This document shows, in pieces, positions 158 through 21,994 of a stretch of 64,000 bases of DNA. The stretch is from Thiomicrorhabdus cannonii. Its GTDB lineage: Bacteria > Pseudomonadota > Gammaproteobacteria > Thiomicrospirales > Thiomicrospiraceae. Location: contig NZ_JACBGH010000004.1 of the NCBI RefSeq assembly GCF_013391695.1, forward strand, positions 1-64,000, written 5' to 3'. Numbering within the stretch: the first letter of the stretch is position 1; every line of letters begins with the position of its first letter. The notes under the pieces were generated by a model. That model searched no databases and had not been told where the DNA came from. It worked only from the letters and a program-made list of their open reading frames with translations. Both the position numbers and the translations under genes were made by a program.

Positions 158-736
158 TTACTTCATCGCGTGAACAGCCTTGAATTTGGCGATCAACGCT
201 TCAGGACGTTTTTTCTTCGTCTCTTTCGTCAACGCATAAACAACCGTCTCGCCCTTAGGACCCGCACCAATATCCGTCAAACGATAAGGCACCTCGCCGT
301 GCTGCATAAAATCCTTAAACAACGCCCAGTCGTCAAACACGTTGATACGGCCATCCGCCACAATCTCGCCATAGAAATTTTCAGCCGGCGCCAAACGCCC
401 TTCCATCATATCGATTGACGGGATGCCGCTGGCCTTCTTCTTATCATCCTTGGTCAGACCGTAAACCAGGGTTTCACCTTTGGGACCTGCGCCAATGAAC
501 GTTTTACGGAATGCGGTTTCACCCACCGCCATGAATTCCATATACAGCGTCGCATCATAGAAAACATTCAAGCGCCCGTCGTGATAAACAACGTATAGAT
601 CATCATTATTCAATTCCTGCTTCACTTCTGCCGTCTGCGCCGGTACCGTCACAGGTGCCGCCTCTTTGGCTTCCATCCCCGAACAACCGGCCAGCGTACC
701 CGCCGCCAACAACATCGCCACAAAACGTTTTTTCAT
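158..736 (-). CDS. Lipoprotein with two tandem internal repeats, function unknown
   Basis: A 192-residue protein with a type II signal peptide: basic start (MKKR), hydrophobic stretch and lipobox LAGC, so it should be lipid-anchored. The mature part holds two copies of a roughly 60-residue unit, each with an aromatic/acidic opening, a DGR-NVF segment and the closing motif GAGPKGET-VY-LTK followed by KKK. I do not recognise the family. The ATG at 736 is preferred over 742 because AGGAA lies about 6 bp upstream of 736 but abuts 742. The IS remnant ends 33 bp beyond its stop. Confidence is high that it is a real lipoprotein; function is unassigned. Confidence 0.75.
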   Translation of the reverse strand: MKKRFVAMLLAAGTLAGCSGMEAKEAAPVTVPAQTAEVKQELNNDDLYVVYHDGRLNVFYDATLYMEFMAVGETAFRKTFIGAGPKGETLVYGLTKDDKKKASGIPSIDMMEGRLAPAENFYGEIVADGRINVFDDWALFKDFMQHGEVPYRLTDIGAGPKGETVVYALTKETKKKRPEALIAKFKAVHAMK

Positions 737-742
737 ATGCAT

Positions 743-6716: not shown

Positions 6717-7577
6717 CTAGGATTTCGCGCTTGGAAAGGCCGGCCAGTCAAACTCCCTATCACCGGCCACCATAAAGTGCGGATTCAGCAAGGATTCGGA
6801 CTGTTCATAACGTAACGCTTTGCCATGACGATCCACCAACTTGCCGCCGGCCTCCTCGACCACGCATTGCGCTGCCGCCGTATCCCATAAAGAAGTCGGG
6901 CCAAAGCGCGGATAGACATCCGCCGCGCCTTCCGCCACCAGACAGGATTTGATGGCCGAGCCCATTTTGACCGTTTGCGTGGCCCCTAGAGCGGCCATAA
7001 ACGCCTTGGTGGAACTGCCATGCCGACGGCTCACCGCCACCCTGACAGGGACACCCGGTTGAAGCGGATGCACCTGAATACGTTGCTTTTCATCCAAGCA
7101 AGCCTGCCATTCACGCCCTGAAACGTTATGCGGAATGACCTGCTTATAGGCACCCTCGCCGCTGACCGCACAATACAGCATCCGCGTTACCGGCACATAC
7201 ACCACGCCCAACACGGTTTTACCTTGTTCAACCAAGGCAATATTCACGCTGAACTCACCGGTGCGCTCAATGAATTCCTTGGTACCGTCCAACGGATCAA
7301 CCAACCAGAAAGTCTGCCAATCCTTGCGCGTGGCAAACGGCACCTCCGCCACGCTCTCCTCCGTCACCAGCGGAATAGCCGGCGTCAGACGGCTCAAGGC
7401 CTCGCAGATGAGGGCATCGGCGCGTTTGTCCGCCAGCGTTACCGGGGTGCCATCGCCCTTGTGTTCAATCTGGGCATCGTCATAATGATCGTAGACCTCC
7501 ACAATCACATCGCCCGCCGCTACCGCAATACGGCACACTTCCGGCAGCAGTTCAACCAAATTCATGAGCACAGCCAT
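6717..7577 (-). CDS. cysQ: 3'(2'),5'-bisphosphate nucleotidase, inositol monophosphatase family
   Basis: 286 residues. Motifs of the Li-sensitive Mg-dependent phosphatase family are clear: VTEES supplying a metal-binding Glu, WLVDPLDGTKEFI as the core metal-binding motif, and a C-terminal SLWDTAAAQCVVEEAGG. The KEF insertion after DGT is typical of CysQ, which hydrolyses 3'-phosphoadenosine 5'-phosphate left over from sulfate assimilation. Its ATG at 7577 overlaps the nudE stop by one base (TGATG), so nudE-cysQ form a coupled operon, a common arrangement. Assignment within the family (CysQ rather than SuhB) is well supported by the motif and neighbour. Confidence 0.92.
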   Translation of the reverse strand: MAVLMNLVELLPEVCRIAVAAGDVIVEVYDHYDDAQIEHKGDGTPVTLADKRADALICEALSRLTPAIPLVTEESVAEVPFATRKDWQTFWLVDPLDGTKEFIERTGEFSVNIALVEQGKTVLGVVYVPVTRMLYCAVSGEGAYKQVIPHNVSGREWQACLDEKQRIQVHPLQPGVPVRVAVSRRHGSSTKAFMAALGATQTVKMGSAIKSCLVAEGAADVYPRFGPTSLWDTAAAQCVVEEAGGKLVDRHGKALRYEQSESLLNPHFMVAGDREFDWPAFPSAKS

Positions 7578-8158
7578 CAAATCCGCCCCGTCTCTTTCAA
7601 TACCAGCATCAAGGCCGCATAGGCGCGCCCCTCGCTAAAATCGGGCTGCGCCAACAGTTCGCGCCACGCATCCAGCTTCCACGGCACCACTTCCAGCGGC
7701 TCAGGCTCATCCCCCGGTTCCGGCTCGGGCGTCAAGCCGGTCGCCAACACGATATGGGTATGGTGCGTCATATAACCCGCCGCCATGCTCACCGAATCGA
7801 GCAGTTTGACGTTGGCGGGCTTATACCCCACCTCTTCCTGACTTTCGCGGATGCAGGCCTGCTCCCAGGTTTCGCCCGGATCGACCTTGCCTTTGGGAAA
7901 GCCCAGTTCGTAGCGCCCCACGCCGATGCAAAATTCACGAATCAGTAACATCGTATTCTCGTCCAGCATCGGTATAATCAACACAGCGCCTTGGGCCGAG
8001 CCCAACAGACGCTCATACACCACCTGATTGCCATTGGAAAACTCCAGCGCCTGCGCCTGCACCGTAAACAGACGCGACTGCGCCACAATCTCTTCGGAAA
8101 GCACAAGAGGAGTGGTTTTTTTTGAAAGGGAATGGGATTGCTGAGTGACTTTTTTCAT
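7577..8158 (-). CDS. nudE: ADP-compounds hydrolase NudE (Nudix family)
   Basis: 193 residues with an intact Nudix box GX5EX7REXXEEXG seen in GKVDPGETWEQACIRESQEE. The downstream MAAGYMTHHTHIVLATGL and EPEPGDEPEPLEVVPW segments match NudE, which cleaves ADP-ribose, NADH and Ap3A-type dinucleotides. It is first in the nudE-cysQ operon and divergent from the HAD nucleotidase gene; nudE lies near yrfG in enterobacteria too. The start ATG at 8158 follows an A+T-rich spacer. Confidence 0.92.
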   Translation of the reverse strand: MKKVTQQSHSLSKKTTPLVLSEEIVAQSRLFTVQAQALEFSNGNQVVYERLLGSAQGAVLIIPMLDENTMLLIREFCIGVGRYELGFPKGKVDPGETWEQACIRESQEEVGYKPANVKLLDSVSMAAGYMTHHTHIVLATGLTPEPEPGDEPEPLEVVPWKLDAWRELLAQPDFSEGRAYAALMLVLKETGRI

Positions 8159-8193
8159 AATTCACATAATACGATAAGGGAAACGGATTGCCA

Positions 8194-10911: not shown

Positions 10912-12840
10912 ATGGCCCTGCTTTTCTTACGCGATCTTACCCTCAGCTTCGGCGCCGCGCCCTTGCTTGACCACGCCAACCTGCAAATCGAGCCTAACGA
11001 ACGGCTCTGTATCGTCGGCCGTAACGGTGAGGGCAAGTCCACGCTGCTCAAAGTCATCGAAGGCGAAATCCTGCCCGACAGCGGTTCGCGTATCGTGCAG
11101 GACGGCGTCAAGATCGCCAAGCTGCAACAGGAAGTGCCGCACGACACCACCGGCAGCGTCTTTCGCGTGATTTCCGACGGCCTCGGCGAGGCCGGCACCC
11201 TGCTGGAACAGTTCCATCACATCAGCCACAAAATGCAGACGGATACCTCCGACGAGACATTGGCCGAGTTCAGCCGTTTGCAGCAGCTGGTCGATACCCA
11301 CAACGCCTGGGATCTGAACCAGCAGGTCGAAACCATTATCTCCAAACTCGGCCTGCCGGGCGAGGCCGAGTTCTCCAAGCTGTCCGGCGGGATGAAACGC
11401 CGCGTACTGCTTGCCAGAGCGCTGGTGCAACAACCCGATATCCTGCTGCTCGACGAACCGACCAACCATTTGGACATCCCGTCGATTCAGTGGCTCGAAG
11501 GCTTTTTGAAAAGCATCCGCTGCGCGCTGGTGTTTATCACCCACGACCGCGCCTTTTTGCAGGCGCTGGCCACGCGCATTGTCGAACTCGACCGCGGCCG
11601 CCTCTCCAACTGGGAGTGCGACTACCACACCTATCTGCAACGCAAGGCGGAATGGCTGGAGGCCGAAGCCAAACAGAATGCCGAATTCGACAAGAAACTC
11701 GCACAGGAAGAGACCTGGATTCGCCAGGGCATCAAGGCGCGCCGCACCCGTAACGAAGGCCGCGTGCGCGCTTTGGAAAAACTGCGTCTGGAACATCAGG
11801 CGCGCCGCAGCCAGCAGGGCAAGGCCAATCTGCAGTTGAACACCACGGCCTTGTCGGGCAAGCAGGTCATTGAAATCGAACACCTCAGCTTCAGCTTCGA
11901 CAACCGCATTATCGTCACCGATTTCTCCGGCGTCATCATGCGCGGCGACAAGGTCGGCATTATCGGTGAGAACGGCTGCGGTAAATCGACCTTTCTGAAC
12001 CTGATTCTCGGCAAACTGCAGCCGACCTCCGGCAAGGTCAAACTCGGCACCAATCTGGATATCGCCTATTTCGACCAGCACCGTGCGCAGCTCGACGAAA
12101 ACCGCACCGTCGCCGAAAGCGTCATCGAAGAGAGCGATTATGTGGAAATCGGCGGGCAGCGTAAACACATTATCGGCTATCTGGGCGACTTCCTGTTCTC
12201 GCCCGACCGTGCCCGCCAGCCGGTCAAGGCGTTGTCGGGCGGCGAACGCAACCGCCTGCTGTTGGCACGCGTGTTCGCCAAACCCTCCAACCTGCTGGTG
12301 CTCGACGAACCCACCAACGACCTGGATGTCGAAACCCTCGAGCTGCTCGAAGAACTGCTGCTGGACTACAAAGGCACGGTGCTGATCGTCAGCCACGACC
12401 GCGCCTTCCTGAACAACGTGGTCACCAGCTCCATCGTGTTCGACGCGCCCGGTATCGTCAACGAATACGTCGGCGGCTACGATGACTGGCTGCGCCAGCG
12501 CCCGGATTTCAGTATTGAAAAACAGCCCAAGAAAGAGAGCAAGCCGGCGGAAAAACCCGCTGAAAACAAGGCGGCGGAAACGCCGGCGAATATCTCGGCT
12601 AACAAGGGCAAAAAACTCAGCTACAAAGACCAGCGCGAATACGACGCCCTACCCGGCCTGATCGAAACCCTGGAGCAGCAACTGGAAGCCTTGAGCGCAC
12701 AGGTCAACGATCCCGCGTTTTACCAGCAGGACGAAGCCCGCGTGCAGGCCGGCCTGAAAGCCCTGTCAGACAAGGAAGCGGAACTCGAAGCGGCGTTTGA
12801 GCGTTGGGAAGTGCTCGAAGCGATGGTCATGGGGCTGTAA
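10912..12840 (+). CDS. uup: ABC-F ATPase Uup
   Basis: 642 residues with two ABC domains and no membrane segment. Walker A: GRNGEGKST and GENGCGKST; signatures LSGGMKRRVLLARAL and LSGGERNRLLLARVF; Walker B LLLDEPTNHLD and LVLDEPTNDLD. A C-terminal charged linker and coiled coil (from about residue 535) is the Uup-specific DNA-binding domain and separates it from EttA. Uup affects transposon excision and branched-DNA processing and acts at the ribosome. It stands alone with a copy of the dispersed repeat right after its stop. Confidence 0.95.
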   Translation: MALLFLRDLTLSFGAAPLLDHANLQIEPNERLCIVGRNGEGKSTLLKVIEGEILPDSGSRIVQDGVKIAKLQQEVPHDTTGSVFRVISDGLGEAGTLLEQFHHISHKMQTDTSDETLAEFSRLQQLVDTHNAWDLNQQVETIISKLGLPGEAEFSKLSGGMKRRVLLARALVQQPDILLLDEPTNHLDIPSIQWLEGFLKSIRCALVFITHDRAFLQALATRIVELDRGRLSNWECDYHTYLQRKAEWLEAEAKQNAEFDKKLAQEETWIRQGIKARRTRNEGRVRALEKLRLEHQARRSQQGKANLQLNTTALSGKQVIEIEHLSFSFDNRIIVTDFSGVIMRGDKVGIIGENGCGKSTFLNLILGKLQPTSGKVKLGTNLDIAYFDQHRAQLDENRTVAESVIEESDYVEIGGQRKHIIGYLGDFLFSPDRARQPVKALSGGERNRLLLARVFAKPSNLLVLDEPTNDLDVETLELLEELLLDYKGTVLIVSHDRAFLNNVVTSSIVFDAPGIVNEYVGGYDDWLRQRPDFSIEKQPKKESKPAEKPAENKAAETPANISANKGKKLSYKDQREYDALPGLIETLEQQLEALSAQVNDPAFYQQDEARVQAGLKALSDKEAELEAAFERWEVLEAMVMGL

Positions 12841-12853
12841 CGCGCTGTTTGCC

Positions 12854-12871
12854 ACCCGGCCTGTTGAGTTT
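12854..12871 (-). repeat. Dispersed 18-bp repeat, copy 4 (after uup)
   Basis: ACCCGGCCTGTTGAGTTT, exact consensus in inverse orientation, 13 bp after the uup stop; single copy, no hairpin partner. Confidence 0.9.
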
Positions 12872-12973
12872 TCACAAGCCGTCGCAAAGCAATTTGAGAA
12901 TCGCTTTCATTTGTGGCAAATATGTATAAAATAGACTCTCTTATAATTTGTATAAATCAGGATTCGGATAACG

Positions 12974-14107
12974 ATGAGTTGCAAAGACCAACACACCTAC
13001 TCAACCTTCTGTCGCTCGCAAAACAACGCGTTGAAAGAGCCGATGTTCTTCGGCCAAAACGTCAATGTGGCACGTTACGACCAGCAGAAGTATCCGTTTT
13101 TTGAAAAGCTGATCGAAAAGCAGCTGAGCTTTTTCTGGCGTCCGGAAGAGGTCGATCTGTCGTCCGACCGTACCGACTATGCCGATTTGCCCGCCAACGA
13201 ACAGCATATCTTTATCAGCAACCTCAAATACCAGACCTTGCTGGATTCGGTACAAGGCCGCTCGCCTAACGTCGCGCTGCTGCCGTTGGTTTCCATCCCC
13301 GAACTGGAAACCTGGATTGAAACCTGGGCGTTCTCCGAGACCATCCACAGCCGTTCGTACACCCACATTATCCGCAATATCGTCACCAATCCGTCGCTGG
13401 TGTTCGACGACATCGTCACCAACGAAGAGATCACCAAACGCGCCATCAGCGTGACCGAATACTACGACGAACTGATTGCGCTGACCAACCACATGTACGC
13501 CAACCAGATCGACCTGGCAACCGATCATGCCTTCCGCAAAAAGATCAAAACCTCGCTTTATCTGACGGTGGTGTCGGTGAATGTGCTGGAAGCGATCCGT
13601 TTCTACGTCTCGTTTGCGTGCAGCTTCTCGTTTGCGGAACGCTCCTTGATGGAAGGCAACGCCAAGATCATCAAGCTGATCGCCCGCGACGAAGCGCTGC
13701 ATCTGTCCGGCACCCAGAACATGATTATTCTGATGGCCGAGGGGCAGGACGATCCGGAAATGGCGGAGATCGCCCGCGAGCAGCAGGAAAACGTCTACAA
13801 CATCTTCCGTCAGGCCGCCGAGCAGGAAAAACAGTGGGCCGACTATCTGTTCAAAGACGGTTCGATGATCGGTCTGAACGCCAGCATTCTGAAAGACTAT
13901 GTGGACTACATCACCAATGTGCGTCTGAAGGCGCTGAAGCTGGAACCGATCTTCAACAGCAAAGGCAATCCGCTGCCGTGGATGAACAACTGGCTGGTCA
14001 GCGACAACGTGCAGGTCGCGCCGCAGGAATCGGAAATCAGCTCCTATCTGGTCGGCCAGGTCGATTCCAAGGTCAATACCGAAGATTTCAGCGACTTTTC
14101 GTTGTAA
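12974..14107 (+). CDS. nrdB: Ribonucleoside-diphosphate reductase, beta subunit (class Ia)
   Basis: 377 residues. NrdB carries the di-iron/tyrosyl radical used by NrdA. Ligand-type motifs are visible: [21 protein letters not shown] supplies Glu, His and the radical Tyr, and [14 protein letters not shown] supplies the second Glu/His pair. The C-terminal [10 protein letters not shown] resembles the tail that docks on NrdA. It has its own upstream region (TATAAT at 12942) and terminator, separate from nrdA 7 kb away. I found no convincing NrdR pair in front of it. Confidence 0.97.
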
Positions 14108-14133
14108 AGCGGTCAGCAAACAACCCATCAAAA

Positions 14134-14155
14134 GGGAGCTTCGGCTCCTTTTTTT
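14134..14155 (+). terminator. Intrinsic terminator of nrdB
   Basis: GGGAGC TTCG GCTCC stem with a UUCG tetraloop followed by seven Ts, 27 bp after the nrdB stop. Confidence 0.92.
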
Positions 14156-14177
14156 ATCCGTTTTTTGGGCGTTTCAA

Positions 14178-14195
14178 AAACTCAACAGGCCGGGT
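14178..14195 (+). repeat. Dispersed 18-bp repeat, copy 5
   Basis: AAACTCAACAGGCCGGGT, exact consensus, single copy 23 bp past the nrdB terminator and 134 bp before the next gene. Confidence 0.9.
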
Positions 14196-14329
14196 ATTCG
14201 CGTGCCTTGCCGATGTGCTTGTCATAAAACAGTCACCAAAACATGCTAAAGTTTCCGCAACGGTTTGACTGCTGAATTTCAACGAAGAAATGCAGCCTCC
14301 AAATAACCCAACCGGTGAGTTCCGCAAGC

Positions 14330-14611
14330 ATGGCCAAAAAAACCAATCTGTTTGAACACGAGTCCTTGCAGGATAAGGACGCGATTGTGCAATACCTCAA
14401 AGCCCTGACCGAAGGTATCGAAAAGGGGGAAGTTTTGCTTTCCGACGATGACGAGAAGGTGACACTCAATCCCACGCCCTTCGGCCGCTTCAAACTCAAG
14501 GCGACCCGCAGCAAAAAAGTTCAGGAGCTGCGTCTTAAAATCAGCTGGATTGGCCATGAAGACGATGGCGAGCGCGCCCAGCCACTGCATATTCAACCGT
14601 CATCCGCCTGA
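14330..14611 (+). CDS. Amphi-Trp domain protein (GAK-type cluster)
   Basis: 93 residues from ATG 14330, with GGTGAG about 10 bp upstream; a GTG at 14315 is a weaker alternative. It fits the small amphi-Trp family: an acidic helical first half (DAIVQYLKALTEGIEKGEV), a Pro/Gly middle and a closing amphipathic strand with LRLKISW. Amphi-Trp proteins of unknown function occur in the gene neighbourhood named GAK (ATP-grasp and kinase), and that is exactly what follows here. It lies 17 bp before the phosphotransferase gene, so the four genes form one operon. Its own role is unknown; a small binding partner or substrate carrier is possible. Confidence 0.75.
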   Translation: MAKKTNLFEHESLQDKDAIVQYLKALTEGIEKGEVLLSDDDEKVTLNPTPFGRFKLKATRSKKVQELRLKISWIGHEDDGERAQPLHIQPSSA

Positions 14612-14628
14612 TGCGCAACCGATAATCC

Positions 14629-16281
14629 ATGAGAATCCTTCCGCCTCTCTATGAAACCCTGCGCTTTCTGCTGTTAGACCTGCAAAAACAGCTGCAGCTG
14701 CTGTCTGACGCCCTGGAAAATCAGGAACCGGGATTGCTCGACAAAAGCCTCGGCCGCGTCGATTATATCGACAATGCCCATTTGACCCTGCTGGAACGCG
14801 CCGGCCGCCAGTATGGCCGTCGCACCAATGAGCACAGCGATGCCCAGCAACGCATCGTCATTCAAAGCTACGAACATATCGCCCACAGTCTCAAGGCGCT
14901 CTCCGGACAGCTGCAACAGATGGCGCACCAGCTCAAGCATATCGGTTCGCTCAAACTGATCCGCAAAAAGAACGTCTTCAGCGCGCTGCAAGACCTCAAC
15001 AAAGGGCTGTCGCTGATTACCGCGGCGATTGAAAGCGACAGCCTGACATTAGCGGTCGACATCTGCCGCCTGCAACTGCGCATCGACAAAGCCTGCTCGG
15101 CACAGCTCGACAAATACAAAAAACGCCTGCGCCAGGGCATCTCCCCCCCCCAGAGCGACGCCCTGCTGCAAGCCTGCTTTATCCTCAAAGACATCGACCT
15201 GATGGGCGATGCGCTGCTGCGCGTCGGCGAAGGCATTATGTCGGCCAACCTCGGCCAGTTCATCCAGATCGACCGTTTCCGCGCGCTCGAAGAGAGCCTG
15301 AGCGTGCTCGACGGCATCCGCCGGCAGGATCTCAACATCCACTCGATGGGCGAAACCAAATCCGGCTGCACCATTTCCGGCGTCAGCGCCTCCAGCGAAA
15401 GCGAAGACCGCATACTGGCTATTTTCAAACAGGGCAAGAAAACCAAACTGCAGGAAGAGAAAGCCCGTATTGAAAAATGGCACCAGAAATATCCGGGCAT
15501 AGCGCCGGAGGTTTACGCCTACCAGAAACAGGGCGACAAAGCCGCCCTGCTGTATGAATACCTGACCGGCCAGACCTTCAATAAACTGTTGCTGGCAAAA
15601 CAGAGCAAACCCCTCAAAAAAGGGCTCGATGCCCTGTTCGCCACACTCAACAAAATCTGGGAACAGACTGCCATTGACGAAGTGCATCCGGCACACTTTA
15701 TGAAGCAGCTGCAAAGACGTCTGCCGCAGGTTTACGAAGTCCACCCCGATTTCCAGCTCAAGGGCCTGAAAATCGGCAATGTCAAACAGGTTTCGCTGGA
15801 AACCTTGGTGGAAGAGGCGCAAAAATTTGAAAAGCGCCTGCAGGTGCCCAAGGCCGTCTATATTCACGGCGATTTCAACACCGACAATATCCTCTACGAT
15901 CCGCTGGAAGAGCAGATCAGCTTTATCGACCTGCACCGTTCCGAATACCTCGATTACGTGCAGGATTTATCGGTGTTGATGGTCTCTTTCTACCGCATCG
16001 CCAATTTCGATCCGACGGTACGCAAACGCATCGTCCAGGCCATGCAAGCCAGTTATGCGTTTGCCACCGAATATGCCGCGAAAATCGACGACCGCGACGT
16101 TGAACTGCGTCTGGCATTGGGCCTGGCGCGCTCGCTGATCACCTCGACGCGTTTCGTGCTCGATAAAGAACATGCCAAATCGATGCACTTCAAAGGCCGT
16201 CTGCTGATCGAACAGTTACTGCAGCTCTCGGACGACGAGCTTCACCACTATAAGATTCCCAAGGAACTCTTCCATGACTAA
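14629..16281 (+). CDS. PhoU-like helical domain fused to an aminoglycoside-phosphotransferase-fold kinase
   Basis: 550 residues in two parts. Residues 1 to about 235 are all-helical, in two similar halves that resemble PhoU/DUF47-type bundles. From about residue 250 there is a kinase of the APH/choline-kinase fold, with catalytic loop HGDFNTDN at 413-420 (D415 as base, N420 for Mg) and the metal-binding FIDLHR at about D434. It should transfer phosphate from ATP to a small molecule or protein; the acceptor is unknown. Its stop overlaps the ATP-grasp start by 8 bp, indicating tight coupling. A run of nine Cs lies within the gene near 15143. The domain reading is by eye. Confidence 0.7.
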   Translation: MRILPPLYETLRFLLLDLQKQLQLLSDALENQEPGLLDKSLGRVDYIDNAHLTLLERAGRQYGRRTNEHSDAQQRIVIQSYEHIAHSLKALSGQLQQMAHQLKHIGSLKLIRKKNVFSALQDLNKGLSLITAAIESDSLTLAVDICRLQLRIDKACSAQLDKYKKRLRQGISPPQSDALLQACFILKDIDLMGDALLRVGEGIMSANLGQFIQIDRFRALEESLSVLDGIRRQDLNIHSMGETKSGCTISGVSASSESEDRILAIFKQGKKTKLQEEKARIEKWHQKYPGIAPEVYAYQKQGDKAALLYEYLTGQTFNKLLLAKQSKPLKKGLDALFATLNKIWEQTAIDEVHPAHFMKQLQRRLPQVYEVHPDFQLKGLKIGNVKQVSLETLVEEAQKFEKRLQVPKAVYIHGDFNTDNILYDPLEEQISFIDLHRSEYLDYVQDLSVLMVSFYRIANFDPTVRKRIVQAMQASYAFATEYAAKIDDRDVELRLALGLARSLITSTRFVLDKEHAKSMHFKGRLLIEQLLQLSDDELHHYKIPKELFHD

Positions 16282-17170
16282 GCTCAAAATCGGGGTGGTC
16301 GGCATTCCCGGCAAATGGTCCACCGAGGTGCTTGCCGACGAGATCGAACAGCGCACCGGTTTCCGTCTGGTCATCGACATCGAACAGGTCGTCGCCGACC
16401 TCAGCAAACCCGAAGTGCTCTACCGGGGACAATGCCTGTGCAAGCTGGACGCGATTGTCATCAAGAAAATCTCCCAGACCTATAGCCCGGCGGTATTGGA
16501 CAGGCTGGAAATATTGCGTTTTGTGGAATGCTGCGGCGTCAGAATCTTCTCCAACCCGGCGGAAATCATGCGCCTGGTGGACCGCATGAGCTGCACCGTG
16601 TCGCTCGCCAAAGCAGGCATTCCGATGCCCGCCACCCTGATTACCGAAAACCACCAGGCCGCTTATGAGGCCGTGCAACGTTTTGGCGAAGCCATTCTCA
16701 AACCGCTTTTTTCCACCAAGGCGCGCGGCATGCAGGTGCTTTCCAGCACTCTGCCCGAAAAGAAACTCAAGGCGCTGCTGCAGGCCTACCGCCAGCAACA
16801 CGGTTTCTACTATGTACAGCAACGCCTCAAATTGCCGGGACAGGATATGGGCCTGATTTTCCTGGGCGGAGAATACCAGGGCGCCTATGCGCGCGTCGGC
16901 AACGGCGAAAGCTGGAACACCACCACTGAATCGGGCGGCAAATACGCCAAAGTCACCCCAAGTGACGACATCATCGCCCTGGCACACAAAGCGCAAGCCC
17001 AATTCAATTTAAGCTATACTACTGTGGATATTGCCGAAACCGAACAGGGCCCCGTCTGCTTTGAAGTCTCCGCATTCGGGGGATTCAAGGGCGCTCATGA
17101 AGGCTTGGGAACCAATATGGCGAGCCGCTATGCGGACTATGTGATTCAACAATTACTAGCCGGAAAATAA
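16274..17170 (+). CDS. ATP-grasp enzyme, GAK-system type
   Basis: 298 residues, RimK-like ATP-grasp architecture: an N-terminal preATP-grasp domain, the ATP-binding half from about residue 95 (RLVDRMSCTVSLAKAGIPMP, then GEAILKPLFSTKARGM), and a C-terminal metal-binding strand FEVSAFGGFKG. The usual Glu-x-Asn metal motif reads E264-V-S266, so Asn is replaced by Ser. Such enzymes ligate a carboxylate to an amine, often on a peptide. It overlaps the kinase-fusion gene by 8 bp and precedes the HprK-related gene by 2 bp. Family assignment is firm; membership of the GAK subgroup is from context. Confidence 0.82.
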   Translation: MTKLKIGVVGIPGKWSTEVLADEIEQRTGFRLVIDIEQVVADLSKPEVLYRGQCLCKLDAIVIKKISQTYSPAVLDRLEILRFVECCGVRIFSNPAEIMRLVDRMSCTVSLAKAGIPMPATLITENHQAAYEAVQRFGEAILKPLFSTKARGMQVLSSTLPEKKLKALLQAYRQQHGFYYVQQRLKLPGQDMGLIFLGGEYQGAYARVGNGESWNTTTESGGKYAKVTPSDDIIALAHKAQAQFNLSYTTVDIAETEQGPVCFEVSAFGGFKGAHEGLGTNMASRYADYVIQQLLAGK

Positions 17171-17172
17171 CT

Positions 17173-18321
17173 ATGTCACTGCTCAAACAGATGCTACTGC
17201 TGGAAAAAAGCATGGCCCTGCTGCCCTCGGCCATAGAGCTGAACCTGAGCGCCTATCCTTTGCGTATCTATACCAATTCCCCCGCTCTGATCAACTTTCT
17301 CAAAGACTATTTCAGAGGGTGGATCACCAAGGTCAACCGTGACGAACCCTGGCCGAAAGAGCAGAGCATCAAAATCTACCATTCCGACAGCCTCAACGAT
17401 CTGATTGATGAAGCCGCCTGGACCGACTGGCAGCGGGATGGCGGTAAAACGGGCCGCAAAGAGGCAATATTGGACAGCGTCCTGCCGCAACAGGCGGTGC
17501 GCCTGCTTTACAAATACAGAACCGGTCTGGTCTTTTTGCAACCCGCGCCGCAAGCCAGACCCGAAAATGCACAATACAGCCCGCTCGCTTTCGGCGAAAT
17601 CGAGGCGAACTTTAACCAGGTCATCAACTTTATCCTTACCCAGTACGCCAACCGCAATCTGCGCCATGATTGGCAGCTTATGCACGCCTCGGCAGTGCAG
17701 GTCCAGAATAAAGGCATTGCCTTTGCCGGCTTCTCCGGCGGCGGCAAATCGACGCTGATGCTGCAGCTGCTCGAACACGGCCAGCACTTTATCAGCAACG
17801 ATCGGGTTTTTATCAAACCCAATCCGGAAGGCCGTCTGCTGATGCGCGGTTTGCCCAAACAGCCGCGCGTCAATCCCGGCACGCTTGTCAATAACCGCCA
17901 TTTAATCAATTTGATCGGTGAGGAAGCCCGCCGCCACTACCTGGCGCTGCCGCAGGAAACGCTGCGCATCCTCGAACAAAAATACGACGTGCCGGTCAAT
18001 GCACTGTTTGGTGCGGATTGCTATGCGCCAGAAAGCCCGTTGCACGCCCTGTTTGTACTGAACTGGCAGCATGGCAACACCCAGCCGATCCGTATCAATC
18101 CAGTCGAGCTGTCGGAGCGTCCCGATCTGCTGCAAGCCATCATGAAATCTCCGGGGCCTTTGTATGCCGAACCGGGCATAGGCTTTTTGCCGAACGGTTA
18201 CCAGCCTCAACCGGAGCCTTATCTGAAGGCGCTGCATCGTTGCAAGGTGTTCGAGATTGTCGGGCGGGTGGATTTTGGCGCGGCAGAACACGCCATTCTC
18301 AAGCTGATTCCCGGCCTTTAA
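17173..18321 (+). CDS. HprK-related kinase B
   Basis: 382 residues. The core resembles the P-loop domain of HPr kinase/phosphorylase: a His in LMHASAV (H171), P-loop GFSGGGKST at 186-194, and FISNDRVFI placing an acidic residue as in HprK. The N-terminal 165 residues and the C-terminal extension differ from HprK proper, and no HPr gene is nearby, so it is not a sugar-PTS kinase. Together with the ATP-grasp and amphi-Trp genes it matches HprK-related kinase B of the GAK neighbourhood. The phosphorylation target is unknown. Its stop overlaps the end of the convergent deacetylase gene by 4 bp. Confidence 0.8.
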   Translation: MSLLKQMLLLEKSMALLPSAIELNLSAYPLRIYTNSPALINFLKDYFRGWITKVNRDEPWPKEQSIKIYHSDSLNDLIDEAAWTDWQRDGGKTGRKEAILDSVLPQQAVRLLYKYRTGLVFLQPAPQARPENAQYSPLAFGEIEANFNQVINFILTQYANRNLRHDWQLMHASAVQVQNKGIAFAGFSGGGKSTLMLQLLEHGQHFISNDRVFIKPNPEGRLLMRGLPKQPRVNPGTLVNNRHLINLIGEEARRHYLALPQETLRILEQKYDVPVNALFGADCYAPESPLHALFVLNWQHGNTQPIRINPVELSERPDLLQAIMKSPGPLYAEPGIGFLPNGYQPQPEPYLKALHRCKVFEIVGRVDFGAAEHAILKLIPGL

Positions 18322-19244
18322 TCCCCAAGTTCAAATAACGCCTTGATATGCTCGCGGGCGCTGAGGCTCAAGGCGGTCAGATCATAACCGCCCTCCAAAA
18401 CCGACAGGATTCTGCCCTGTGCATGGCGTTCGGCAATGGCAACCAATTGTCGGGTAATCCAGCCATAATCACTCTCATGCAGGCGCAGATTGGCCAACGG
18501 GTCCATGGAATGGCCGTCAAAACCGGCGGAAACCAGAATGATTTGCGGCGCAAAAGCCTCCAAAGCGGGAAAGCCCTGCTCCGACCAGGCCTGTTGAAAA
18601 ACCTCGCTGTTACTGTATTTTTGCAGCGGAATCTTCACCATATTCGGCAGGTCGGATTCGGGATCGGTATAGGGATAGAATGGGAATTCAAAACTCGAAC
18701 CGAACCAGACGCGCGGTTCGCGGCGCACATAATCTTCCGTGCCGTTACCGTGATGCACGTCGAAATCGACAATCGCGATGCGCTCGTAACCATAGTGCTG
18801 CAACGCATAGGCCGCACCGATGGCAATGTTATTGAACAGACAGAACCCCATCGCCCGCTTGTATTCGGCGTGATGCCCCGGCGGTCGCACATTGCAGAAC
18901 ACCCGTTTGGCACGACCATGATGCAGCGCATCAATACCGTCCAATACCGCGCCGACCGCATGCCGCGCCGCCTCCAGACTGTGCGCACACAGATAAACGT
19001 CTTCGTCAAACCCGACAATGCCCTTTTCCGGCAAGGCGGCTTCGATAGACTGCAACAGGTCGGGATGATGCACCAGACAGAGTTCCTCGTCGCTGGCGGC
19101 ACGCGCCTCGGCGTGCATAAACCAATCGAACAGGCCGGCGCTGATGAGTTGGTCCTGAATGCGTCCCAAACGTTCGGCTCTTTCGGGATGATAAACACCA
19201 TTGTCATGCAAACGACACGCTGAATGCGTAATATAAAGATTCAT
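18318..19244 (-). CDS. Histone-deacetylase-family deacylase (class II type)
   Basis: 308 residues from ATG 19244, which has GGAG 9 bp upstream. Zn-dependent deacetylase motifs are complete: RPPGHHAEYKRAMGFCLFNN with the catalytic His pair, IVDFDVHHGNGTEDY with the Zn-binding Asp/His, and SAGFDGHSMDPLANL. Bacterial members act on acetyl-lysine, acetylpolyamines or similar amides. It is divergent from the Pat-like acetyltransferase with only 47 bp between start codons, so the two are likely coregulated as an acetylation/deacetylation pair. The substrate cannot be read from sequence. Confidence 0.9.
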   Translation of the reverse strand: MNLYITHSACRLHDNGVYHPERAERLGRIQDQLISAGLFDWFMHAEARAASDEELCLVHHPDLLQSIEAALPEKGIVGFDEDVYLCAHSLEAARHAVGAVLDGIDALHHGRAKRVFCNVRPPGHHAEYKRAMGFCLFNNIAIGAAYALQHYGYERIAIVDFDVHHGNGTEDYVRREPRVWFGSSFEFPFYPYTDPESDLPNMVKIPLQKYSNSEVFQQAWSEQGFPALEAFAPQIILVSAGFDGHSMDPLANLRLHESDYGWITRQLVAIAERHAQGRILSVLEGGYDLTALSLSAREHIKALFELGD

Positions 19245-19291
19245 TGCGTTTATCTCCGCTTCTCTAACGACCATCACAGGAGTTTCGAACC

Positions 19292-21994
19292 ATGGGGCCG
19301 CACTATCTATCCAAACTCTTCAATCCGGCCAGCATCGCCGTGTTCGGCGCCAGCGACCGGCCCGATTCCGTGGGTGCCAACGCGCTGCAGAATTTGCTGA
19401 AGGGCGGCTATCAAGGCCAACTCTACCCCATCAATCCTAAACACCGCAAAGTACAAAAGCAAGACTGCTATCCTACTCTGTGCGCTCTGCCCGAAGTGCC
19501 CGAACTCGCAATCATCGCCACGCCCGCCGCCACCATTCCAGCGATTATCCAGGCTTGCGGCCAAAGAGGCGTGGCCAACGCGATTATCCTCTCCGCCGGT
19601 TTTGAAGACGAAAACGGCAAACGCATCCAACAGCAGATGACCGCCAGCGCCCACGCTTACGGCATGCGCCTGCTCGGCCCCAACTCGCTAGGCATTTTGC
19701 GTCCCAAAATCGGACTCAACGCCACCTTCAGCAAAAATCAGGCGCGTCCCGGCCATCTCGCATTGATCTCGCAGTCAGGCGCACTGTGCACCGCCGTACT
19801 CGACTGGGCGGAAGCCAACGATGTCGGCTTCTCGCTGGTCGTGTCCAGCGGTGACGCCGCCGATCTCGATTTCGGCGAAATCCTCGATTTTCTCGCCACC
19901 GACAACCAGACCCACAGCATTCTGCTCTATATCGAAGGCATTGCCGATGCACGCCGCTTTATGAGCGGGCTGAAAACCGCCGCACGCATGAAGCCGGTCA
20001 TACTGCTTAAATCCGGGCGTTTGCCTGCGGGCAGCCGCGCCGCGCTATCGCACAGCGGCGCGCTGATCGGTTCCGACGATGTCTTCAACAGCGCCATCGA
20101 ACGCGCCGGCGCCATCCGCGCCTTCACCATTTTCCAGCTGTTCGCAGCAGCCAAAACGCTTTCCAACGGCATCCATCTCAAAAGCAACCGCCTGGCCATT
20201 GTCACCAACGGCGGCGGGCCGGGCGTAATGGCCACCGACCGCGCCGCCGAACTCGGCATCGAACTGCCGCAGCCGACGCCGCAAACTCTTGAGAAACTGA
20301 ACGCGACCCTGCCCAAACACTGGTCGCACGGCAATCCGGTCGATGTGCTCGGCGATGCCTCTTCCGAGCGCTATCTGAGCGCTGTTGAAGCCTGCCAGAA
20401 CGACCCGCAGTTCGATGCGATTCTGGTGCTGCTCACGCCGCAGGCCATGACCCATCCGTTAACAGTGGCGCAGGCGCTGGCCGATTTTGTGCAAAACACG
20501 CCGCACTGCAAACCTATTTTCACCGCCTGGCTCGGCGAGAGCCTGGTGGCCAAGGCACGCGCCTATTTCAGCGCCCATAAAATACCCACCTTCCATACGC
20601 CCGAAGCGGCGGTGGAAGCCTTTGCCTTCCTGTCGGCCTATCATCAAAACCAGCAGCTGTTGATGCAGGTGCCCGCCACCGGCGAGCAACCCTGCATTCA
20701 AGCGGATATTGCAGGCGCACGCACGCTGATTCAAAGTGCCATCGGCGAACAGCGTGCGTTTTTAAGCAGCACCGAAACGCGGGCGGTACTGCACGCCTTT
20801 GGCATCCCCATCACCCCGTCCATTGAAGCCAGCAACGCCCAGCAGGCCATGGTGGCGGCCGAATCGCTCGGCTTTCCGGTCAGCATCAAAATCAACTCGC
20901 CCAACCTCACCCACAAGTCGGACGTCGGCGGCGTGCGCCTTAACCTCAACAGCGTGCAGGAGGTCCGCCAGGCGTTCACCCAGATGGTCGGCCATGTCCA
21001 GCAGATACAGCCGGAGGCCAAAATTCTCGGCGTCACCGTCGAACCCATGTACCACGCCCCTTTTGCGCGCGAACTGCTGGTGGGCGTGGCGCGTGACCCG
21101 GTCTTCGGCCCGGCGATCACCTTCGGCAGCGGCGGAACCGAGGTAGAGGTGCTGCAAGACCGCAGTATCGCCCTGCCGCCACTGAACGATTTCATTGCAC
21201 GCCGCATGATCGCCCGCACCAAAGTCGCGAAGATGCTCGGTAATTTCCGCGGCCGCCCGGCGGTGAATGAAGATGCAATTGTCGAAGTGCTGCTGCGCAT
21301 TTCCGATATGGTGGCGCAACTGCCGGAGATTACCGAGCTTGACATCAACCCGCTGTTTGCCGACGAGCACGGCGTCATGGCGGTCGATGCACGTATCCGC
21401 GTGCAGATGCCCGACATTCGCGCCCTGCCCTATCAGCACATGGCCATCCACCCTTACCCGGCGGAATTGCGCAAGCAAGTACAGACCAAAACCGGCTTGG
21501 CGATCACCATCCGTCCGATCCGCCCGGAAGACGCCAAGATGGAGATGGATTTCATTGCCAACCTGTCGGAGCGCAGCCGTTATCTGCGTTTTATGAACCA
21601 TCTGCAAACCCTCACGCCGCAGATGCTGTCGCGCTTCACGCAGATCGACTACGACCGCGAAATGGCGTTTATCGCCACCACCGAGGATGCCAACCAGCAG
21701 ACCATTGAAATCGCGGTGACGCGCTACACCACCAACCCCGACGGTGTCTCCTGCGAAATGGCGATTGTGGTGCGCGACGACTACCAGCATCAGGGCGTGG
21801 CGGCTTTGCTGCTGCAAAGCCTGATCAGCCATGCCAAATCCAAGGGGTTAAGACGCATGGAGGGCGAGGTGCTCAGTGAGAATGTGGAAATGCTGAGTCT
21901 GGCGAGAAGCTTCGGCTTCAAGCTGACGCCTTTGGAGGATGATCCGCAGATCACCGCCATCAGCCTGCCGCTCATTCCGAGTCACCCGGGTTAA
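19292..21994 (+). CDS. Pat/PatZ-like protein: acyl-CoA synthetase (NDP-forming) domains fused to GNAT acetyltransferase
   Basis: 900 residues, the length of Pat. Order: CoA-binding domain (SIAVFGASDRPDSVGANAL), succinyl-CoA-ligase-like domain with SHSGALIGSD, an ATP-grasp domain from about residue 475 (FGIPITPSIEA to TELDINPLFA), and a C-terminal GNAT domain from about 735 (ITIRPIRPEDAKMEMDFI, with a QHQGVAALLL acetyl-CoA loop). Pat acetylates lysines on acetyl-CoA synthetase and other proteins. The His of SHSGAL, the residue phosphorylated in active ADP-forming synthetases, is present, so loss of synthetase activity cannot be assumed. RBS AGGAG precedes the ATG. Confidence 0.9.
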   Translation: MGPHYLSKLFNPASIAVFGASDRPDSVGANALQNLLKGGYQGQLYPINPKHRKVQKQDCYPTLCALPEVPELAIIATPAATIPAIIQACGQRGVANAIILSAGFEDENGKRIQQQMTASAHAYGMRLLGPNSLGILRPKIGLNATFSKNQARPGHLALISQSGALCTAVLDWAEANDVGFSLVVSSGDAADLDFGEILDFLATDNQTHSILLYIEGIADARRFMSGLKTAARMKPVILLKSGRLPAGSRAALSHSGALIGSDDVFNSAIERAGAIRAFTIFQLFAAAKTLSNGIHLKSNRLAIVTNGGGPGVMATDRAAELGIELPQPTPQTLEKLNATLPKHWSHGNPVDVLGDASSERYLSAVEACQNDPQFDAILVLLTPQAMTHPLTVAQALADFVQNTPHCKPIFTAWLGESLVAKARAYFSAHKIPTFHTPEAAVEAFAFLSAYHQNQQLLMQVPATGEQPCIQADIAGARTLIQSAIGEQRAFLSSTETRAVLHAFGIPITPSIEASNAQQAMVAAESLGFPVSIKINSPNLTHKSDVGGVRLNLNSVQEVRQAFTQMVGHVQQIQPEAKILGVTVEPMYHAPFARELLVGVARDPVFGPAITFGSGGTEVEVLQDRSIALPPLNDFIARRMIARTKVAKMLGNFRGRPAVNEDAIVEVLLRISDMVAQLPEITELDINPLFADEHGVMAVDARIRVQMPDIRALPYQHMAIHPYPAELRKQVQTKTGLAITIRPIRPEDAKMEMDFIANLSERSRYLRFMNHLQTLTPQMLSRFTQIDYDREMAFIATTEDANQQTIEIAVTRYTTNPDGVSCEMAIVVRDDYQHQGVAALLLQSLISHAKSKGLRRMEGEVLSENVEMLSLARSFGFKLTPLEDDPQITAISLPLIPSHPG

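Follow-up and report, generated by a model that had tools for sequence, protein, structure and literature searches.

Four tightly packed open reading frames (ORFs) on the forward (+) strand of Thiomicrorhabdus cannonii, lying in a 64-kb stretch of DNA (64,000 nucleotides, the whole of which is called the window below), constitute a reduced version of the larger GAK gene set, and we lean towards placing GAK in the Pho regulon as a module that responds to phosphate starvation. The four genes encode an amphi-Trp protein (W), a PhoU-kinase fusion (K), a GAK ATP-grasp ligase (G) and an HprK-related kinase B (H). Three observations carry this reading: a statistically significant subset of lineages has PhoB-type operators (Pho boxes) in front of the operon, all 46 loci with full flanks have a PhoU domain joined to a small-molecule-type kinase, and most loci pair the ATP-grasp ligase and both kinases, as writers, with phosphate-ester and phosphoanhydride hydrolases. 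Because of the linked hydrolases and the Pho boxes, phosphate homeostasis is indicated, and some link of GAK to phosphate appears highly probable to us. The larger gene set is probably turned on by phosphate shortage.

The loci compared are the best 80 of 495 from one genome scan and represent close relatives of the query rather than all GAK systems. Loci L013-L045 mostly duplicate the genomes of L047-L126, and counts out of 80 or 46 take L047-L126 only; loci truncated at contig ends fall among the misses in the 80-locus counts, and the 46 are those with full 8-kb flanks. The companion genes are abbreviated as P (His-phosphatase), M (metallophosphoesterase), S (SixA-Nudix fusion) and n (single Nudix).

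Pho boxes upstream of GAK operons

The Pho box consensus consists of two CTGTCAT repeats spaced 4 bp apart, as given in passages of PMC3333781. The 250 bp upstream of 77 operons were scored on the sense strand and compared with 419 permutations of the heptamer, a test chosen after a first scan of both strands with shuffled upstreams; the 77 leave out L047, a close sister replaced by the window, and three loci with the first gene <200 bp from a contig end. Sites matching at least 10, 11, 12 and 13 of the 14 consensus positions were present in 26, 16, 6 and 2 upstreams, respectively, against permutation averages of 6.9, 1.07, 0.13 and 0.02. None of the permutations equalled the real counts, the maximum at the threshold of 11 being 11, and a control set of 148 coding upstreams of G and H gave 10, 1, 0 and 0. 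At the same threshold of at least 11/14, sites were found in 10 of 19 upstreams of the window's family (permutation maximum, 6) and in 6 of 58 outside it (permutation mean, 0.65; maximum, 5).

The window's own site (Table 1) is conserved in L047 and L060, from two related species, where the sequence around it has diverged. Nine operon loci were added later, of which L160 and L162 repeat L117 and L123, already counted; two others, from one genus, have sites of 13/14 and 12/14 at -74 and -75, and the remaining seven of the nine, the two repeats among them, score 8-10. Where P-M stands away from the operon, in genome G025, a 13/14 box lies just 5' of P-M, and the congeners G042 and G054 have a 10/14 site at -71 before the displaced M.

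Similar sites occur elsewhere in the window and its genome. Two overlapping Pho-box-like sites of 11/14 each lie at 809-837 on the minus strand, ~80-95 bp before a lipoprotein-like small gene (158-742, minus strand) that may be another Pho-regulated gene, and one of the two matches the GAK box at 17 of 18 letters. A near copy of the GAK box with one mismatch (G000:C10:23677-23694; L150, L155) is located in the gap before a chemotaxis-receptor-like gene, and two weaker copies are found in the same genome at C1:183506 and C3:88718. Gene names of this kind (and, below, ribonucleotide reductase beta-like, histone-deacetylase-like, acyl-CoA synthetase-like/acetyltransferase and CNNM-like) were read from the sequence.

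Protein families, linkage and companion genes

A preliminary description of 14330-18321 had read the four genes as encoding an amphi-Trp protein, a PhoU-like/phosphotransferase fusion, an ATP-grasp enzyme and an HprK-related kinase in a tight operon. This reading is borne out: W and K are separated by 17 bp, K and G overlap by 8 bp and G and H are 2 bp apart, and the three models that it had named for a check, HprK-related kinase B, GAK ATP-grasp and amphi-Trp, all score above their curated NCBIfam cut-offs (W, 65.9 bits, cut-off 31; G, 457 bits, cut-off 300; H, 279 bits, cut-off 200), with K assigned by profile.

No dedicated NCBIfam model matched K. Its APH domain passes the Pfam cut-off (PF01636, 51 bits; cut-off, 23.2), and the single-sequence PhoU match falls just under its own (22.6; cut-off, 23.5). 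A profile of 75 sequences aligned positions 18-222 with solved full-length PhoU proteins (4q25_A, E 3e-11; 1t72_A, E 1e-8) and positions 288-445 with APH(3') (4feu_A, E 6e-7), and the fold of an AlphaFold model (mean pLDDT, 91.9) matched APH(3') and choline kinase. As judged from profile and model, K is a true PhoU-kinase fusion, with the PhoU domain at about residues 18-222 and an APH/choline-kinase-type kinase at about 230-510. The catalytic loop HGDxNxDN is present in 76/76 relatives of at least 480 aa and the following Asp motif in 75/76, motif counts here and below being restricted to proteins above the length limits.

The second-best model for G was MptN (146 bits; cut-off, 350), and LysX and RimK were the solved structures closest to its profile. 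RimK-type ligases have the metal motif E-x-N; because this reads E-V-S in 79 of 80 G proteins (FEVSxxGG in the metal-motif region, FEVN in 0/80), the chemistry of G may differ from that of RimK-type ligases. H carries SGxGKS and NDR in 67/67 relatives of at least 300 aa each, stays below threshold for HPr(Ser) kinase (TIGR00679, 32 bits; cut-off, 240) and has no solved relative at E 0.01. W shows the motif F-x-H-x-S-x-Q near its N-terminus, with F8, H10 and W73 invariant, S12 conserved at 98% and Q14, G33 and P48, like S12, each at 97-98%; its C-terminus varies in length and sequence, the last residue being K in 22/59 and S in 9/59. The predicted model of W comprises one helix and four strands (mean pLDDT, 86) and has no Foldseek match at E 0.001, and its sequence has no convincing solved relative, the best being a designed protein (E 0.004). 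Across the families of the system, the active-site motifs are largely intact.

G exceeded the cut-off in 33 of 113 relatives, and one more (G031) has G in two pieces, giving 34 GAK relatives; K was found in the same 34 of the 113. W passed its cut-off in all 34 and in four relatives without GAK. Since G, K and W occur together in 46/46 named loci with full flanks, the linkage on which the preliminary description relied is kept in relatives, and it exceeds chance. That description had taken the first, third and fourth genes as the core, and in this respect it needs revision: K is the constant partner of G, as constant as the ligase, and H was not found beside G in 4 of the 34 relatives within the flanks searched (G011, G037, G041 and G044), one further locus ending at a contig edge. 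The smallest form seen is W-K-G, which suggests that HprK-related kinase B is an optional or movable layer. Among individual loci, L061, L090, L098 and L031 likewise gave no HprK-related kinase B in the flanks examined.

Gene presence among the 80 loci was 78 for K, 70 for H, 67 for P, 60 for W, 59 for M, 41 for S and 39 for n; the corresponding numbers among the 46 full-flank loci were 46 (K), 46 (W), 44 (H), 41 (P), 41 (M), 24 (n) and 24 (S). The most frequent gene order is n-K-G-H-S-P-M-W (22 loci), followed by P-M-W-K-G-H (11 loci, in the window's family). GAK is scattered in a minority of proteobacteria, with G over the cut-off in 13 of 398 genomes sampled from the phylum, and also occurs in some planctomycetes (L073 and L126). 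Inter-family distances correlate in the 49 of 80 loci that have all six families (r 0.68-0.89, species kinship not being corrected for); the families diverge together, as expected of a unit inherited together, and shared species history alone would also give such a correlation.

Several irregular loci were seen as well. The ligase and the PhoU-kinase genes are each split over two frames in G031:C5 (L032), and the metallophosphoesterase gene is in two pieces in G054:C5 (L157), from either sequencing error or decay. Genome G046 has an orphan amphi-Trp gene (L140; best Pho-box score, 7/14) and lacks GAK though its congeners have it, so this gene is possibly a remnant. The four genomes with amphi-Trp in the absence of GAK (G046, G097, G102 and G112) showed no common neighbours on reading their ORFs, and only the G046 protein was matched by the amphi-Trp profile built here.

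The companion genes are chiefly predicted hydrolases. In loci L121, L071 and L073, they pass the Pfam cut-offs for NUDIX, His_Phos_1 and Metallophos, except that no His_Phos match is listed for the SixA half of L073. By profile against solved structures, the SixA half of S resembles 2rfl (E 2e-15) and its Nudix half human diphosphoinositol polyphosphate phosphohydrolase 1 (9t48, E 2e-13), followed by yeast Ddp1; by the title of a paper on it, Aps1, a Nudix protein of this type, is an inositol pyrophosphatase and inorganic polyphosphatase. P resembles phosphoglycerate mutase-type proteins and n MutT-type Nudix proteins, and M weakly resembles a psychrophilic phosphatase and ApaH (E about 1e-3). 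The motif GDxxDKGP...GNHD is present in 56/56 M proteins, RHG/RHA in 66/66 P proteins and the full Nudix box in 33/39 n proteins. M was found in 26 of the 113 relatives, all of them GAK-bearing (26 of the 34). The window holds the reduced version because M is absent from its own genome at E 1e-20 and P, S and n were not found within the 64 kb, the part searched for these three (a 20-bit Nudix match at 7577-8161 being the only trace).

Other linked genes among the 80 loci encode CofD-like (19), CHAD (10), ParA (7), second His-phosphatase (5), Na/Pi cotransporter (5), CNNM-like transporter (5) and full PhoU (1) proteins, the CHAD, Na/Pi and PhoU identities each being backed by family models for one example. 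CHAD is described in PMC6537752 as a polyphosphate-binding module; CHAD-linked loci include L079 (Aestuariispira) and the two planctomycete loci, both from Rhodopirellula. In G125, W is followed in the same orientation by a CofD-like gene, and at a distance of 0.8 kb from the Nudix gene there is a divergent gene for a Na/Pi transporter. On another of its contigs (G000:C6:67384-68019; L145), the window's genome carries a CHAD gene. Neither the window's own genome nor its family matched the CofD-like model TIGR04357 at E 1e-20, and the 113 relatives gave one weak match, in another family; the CofD-like protein is a companion, not a defining part of GAK. The XXXCH protein (TIGR04358) is presumably a further GAK member.

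Around the operon (Table 1), the hairpin sits 3' of a ribonucleotide reductase beta-like gene and would set the GAK unit apart from that upstream gene. Pho boxes and -10 elements obey a spacing rule, and the possible -10 element was not among the results of the sigma-70 scan. Rfam gave no match within 12000-20000 of the window. Adjoining the operon at 18318-21994 are a histone-deacetylase-like gene (minus strand) and a large acyl-CoA synthetase-like/acetyltransferase gene (plus strand), perhaps an acetylation pair.

Table 1. Features of the GAK operon and its upstream region in the window
Feature	Position	Strand	Details
Hairpin GGAGC-TTCG-GCTCC and T-run	14135..14155	+	Found by eye; automated scan lists the hairpin on the minus strand only
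Pho box (PhoB-type operator) TTGTCATAAAACAGTCAC	14219..14236	+	11/14 consensus positions; begins 111 bp before the W start codon
Possible -10 element TAAAGT	14247..14252	+	Found by eye; 10 bp past the Pho box
W, amphi-Trp small protein	14330..14611	+	93 aa; TIGR04354
K, PhoU-kinase fusion	14629..16281	+	550 aa; PF01636 and PhoU profile
G, GAK ATP-grasp ligase	16274..17170	+	298 aa; RimK/LysX/MptN-like; TIGR04356
H, HprK-related kinase B	17173..18321	+	382 aa; P-loop kinase; TIGR04355

A possible phosphate cycle and its alternatives

If GAK is a phosphate-starvation module, we infer that it would work as follows. Falling phosphate would lead PhoB to activate the operon, and the PhoU domain would tie phosphate status to the kinase to which it is joined. 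The two kinases and the ligase would make a phosphorylated product, or cap one, and amphi-Trp would carry or sense it; for amphi-Trp, the roles of carrier, sensor or target can be envisaged. Flux in the other direction would pass through the Nudix, SixA-Nudix, His-phosphatase and metallophosphoesterase proteins, which would strip phosphate, so that the mark is reset and phosphate recovered. Whether GAK is such a writer/eraser cycle on phosphate or phosphoanhydride groups we regard as an evenly balanced question; polyphosphate or a polyphosphate-linked modification is the likeliest candidate for its object, although a tentative one. In the window's genome, other enzymes would have to reset the mark, or it would never be reset, because M was not found there and the other linked hydrolases were not found in the window. 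A more far-reaching version, which we hold to be rather doubtful, is that GAK constitutes a so far unrecognised pathway of signalling or storage under phosphate starvation, in which a PhoU-gated kinase, a second kinase of the P-loop type and an ATP-grasp enzyme write a phosphoanhydride mark that a dedicated set of Nudix, SixA and phosphatase proteins erases, as a bacterial counterpart of the inositol-pyrophosphate/SPX system; the mark would then be either a messenger of a new kind or a protein modification that is linked to polyphosphate and carried by amphi-Trp.

A number of results weigh against placing GAK in phosphate control. Outside the window's family, 52 of 58 upstreams have no site of at least 11/14, and the 12 of 58 with at least 10/14 are equalled by 5 of 419 permutations. 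The first two-strand scan found sites of at least 11/14 in 18 of 77 upstreams, but its mean shuffle-p over all loci was 0.42. Box-like matches in the whole window number 4 against 3.8 by chance; since this is the chance level, only position, conservation and relatives count for the site at 14219-14236. For a positive control, the pstC upstreams of 20 genomes were scored, all from the window's family and its own among them; sites of at least 10/14 were present in 16/20 and of at least 11/14 in 5/20, counts equalled by 3 and 9 of 419 permutations, respectively, and the pst region of the window's own genome has no site of at least 11/14. On the side of the companions, RHG/RHA is missing from the SixA half of 4 of 39 proteins (present in 35/39), and the Nudix box of S is degenerate, with the full pattern in 0/41 and the E-x-x-E-E core kept in 38/41; the fused Nudix domain may bind rather than cleave. 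The CHAD, Na/Pi and CofD-like genes are linked in minorities only, and the association of CHAD with GAK within the family is modest (20/33 versus 7/29, p 0.005, with relatedness ignored).

Among the alternatives, the preliminary description had proposed that the ligase and kinases modify amphi-Trp or a peptide stepwise, phosphate regulation being incidental. The partnership itself is well attested, as W lies near G and K in 46/46 full-flank loci and is present in 34/34 GAK relatives, the closest solved ligases are LysX and RimK, and W keeps F8, H10 and W73 invariant and S12 at 98%, so that amphi-Trp could serve as a phosphorylation target or a binding partner. Ligation onto it, however, finds no specific support in its unconserved C-terminus, whose variable last residue (K in 22/59, S in 9/59) offers no conserved acceptor tail; four relatives carry amphi-Trp over the cut-off without GAK; and the linked Nudix, SixA, phosphatase, CHAD and Na/Pi genes as well as the Pho boxes are left unexplained. 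We consider this proposal unlikely.

A bacterial messenger of the inositol-pyrophosphate type, made by an ATP-grasp kinase and turned over by a His-phosphatase and a DIPP-like Nudix as in eukaryotic phosphate sensing, would account for the likeness of SixA-Nudix to DIPP1 and Ddp1 and for the linkage of kinases and phosphatases in operons that in many cases have Pho boxes. Yet the 5 relatives (of 113) that have inositol-1-phosphate synthase (PF01658) all lie outside the 34 with GAK, and the matches listed for the ATP-grasp protein include amino-acid ligases but no inositol kinase; an imported or different polyol is a possible substrate. The absence of the synthase from GAK relatives led us to reject inositol pyrophosphates as the principal interpretation, and we regard such a messenger as very unlikely. 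Equally improbable, in our estimation, is an F420-like pathway in which the CofD-like protein and an MptN/CofF-like ligase make a small glutamylated cofactor and phosphatases clear intermediates. The CofD-like gene in 19 of 80 loci (193 bits to TIGR04357, cut-off 340, for the L110 example, which is truncated at the locus end) and the rank of MptN as second-best ligase model (146 bits, below the cut-off of 350) fit this pathway, but the window's genome and family, which keep the ligase, gave nothing for TIGR04357 at E 1e-20, 79 of 80 G proteins have E-V-S in place of E-x-N, and PhoU and the Pho boxes would be left unexplained. Polyphosphate kinase 1, also tried as a discriminator, was uninformative, being present in 89 of 113 relatives, in 34/34 GAK genomes and in nearly all others of the family.

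Relation to known systems

The protein families and the GAK name were known already, and the four-gene set is a reduced variant of what they describe; the GAK models in NCBIfam state no function in their names, the proteins being named by neighbourhood only. The open-access full texts searched contained no paper giving GAK or amphi-Trp a function or linking either to the Pho regulon, in agreement with the preliminary description, and the passages of the Desulfovibrio phosphate papers PMC5193443 and PMC3333781 do not name GAK genes. The placement in the Pho regulon, K as constant partner and phosphoanhydride hydrolases as usual companions together give GAK its first testable function; if this is true, a post-transcriptional layer of phosphate control would exist in a scattered minority of proteobacteria and in some planctomycetes.

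Compared with the GAK system of NCBIfam (TIGR04354-TIGR04357), the window has the ligase, HprK-related kinase B and amphi-Trp over curated cut-offs, and it differs in having no CofD-like gene found in its genome and in its PhoU-kinase fusion, for which NCBIfam has no dedicated model. With the Pho regulon (PhoB/PhoR, Pst-PhoU) it shares the upstream Pho box and the PhoU domain, and its genome has phoU and pstC, whereas the PhoU domain of K is fused to a kinase; to our knowledge, GAK genes are not part of the classical Pho regulon. LysX acts on LysW and RimK on S6, at C-terminal acceptors; in both of these modification systems a ligase of the same family stands beside a small protein, as in GAK, whereas amphi-Trp is without a conserved C-terminal acceptor tail. 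SPX is part of eukaryotic phosphate control. The turnover of inositol pyrophosphates and polyphosphate in eukaryotes (PPIP5K, DIPP/Ddp1 and SPX) differs from GAK in that the GAK ATP-grasp protein is ligase-like rather than inositol-kinase-like and that inositol synthase occurs in 0/34 GAK relatives; the two have in common that an ATP-grasp enzyme, a His-phosphatase and a DIPP-like Nudix come together in phosphate control.

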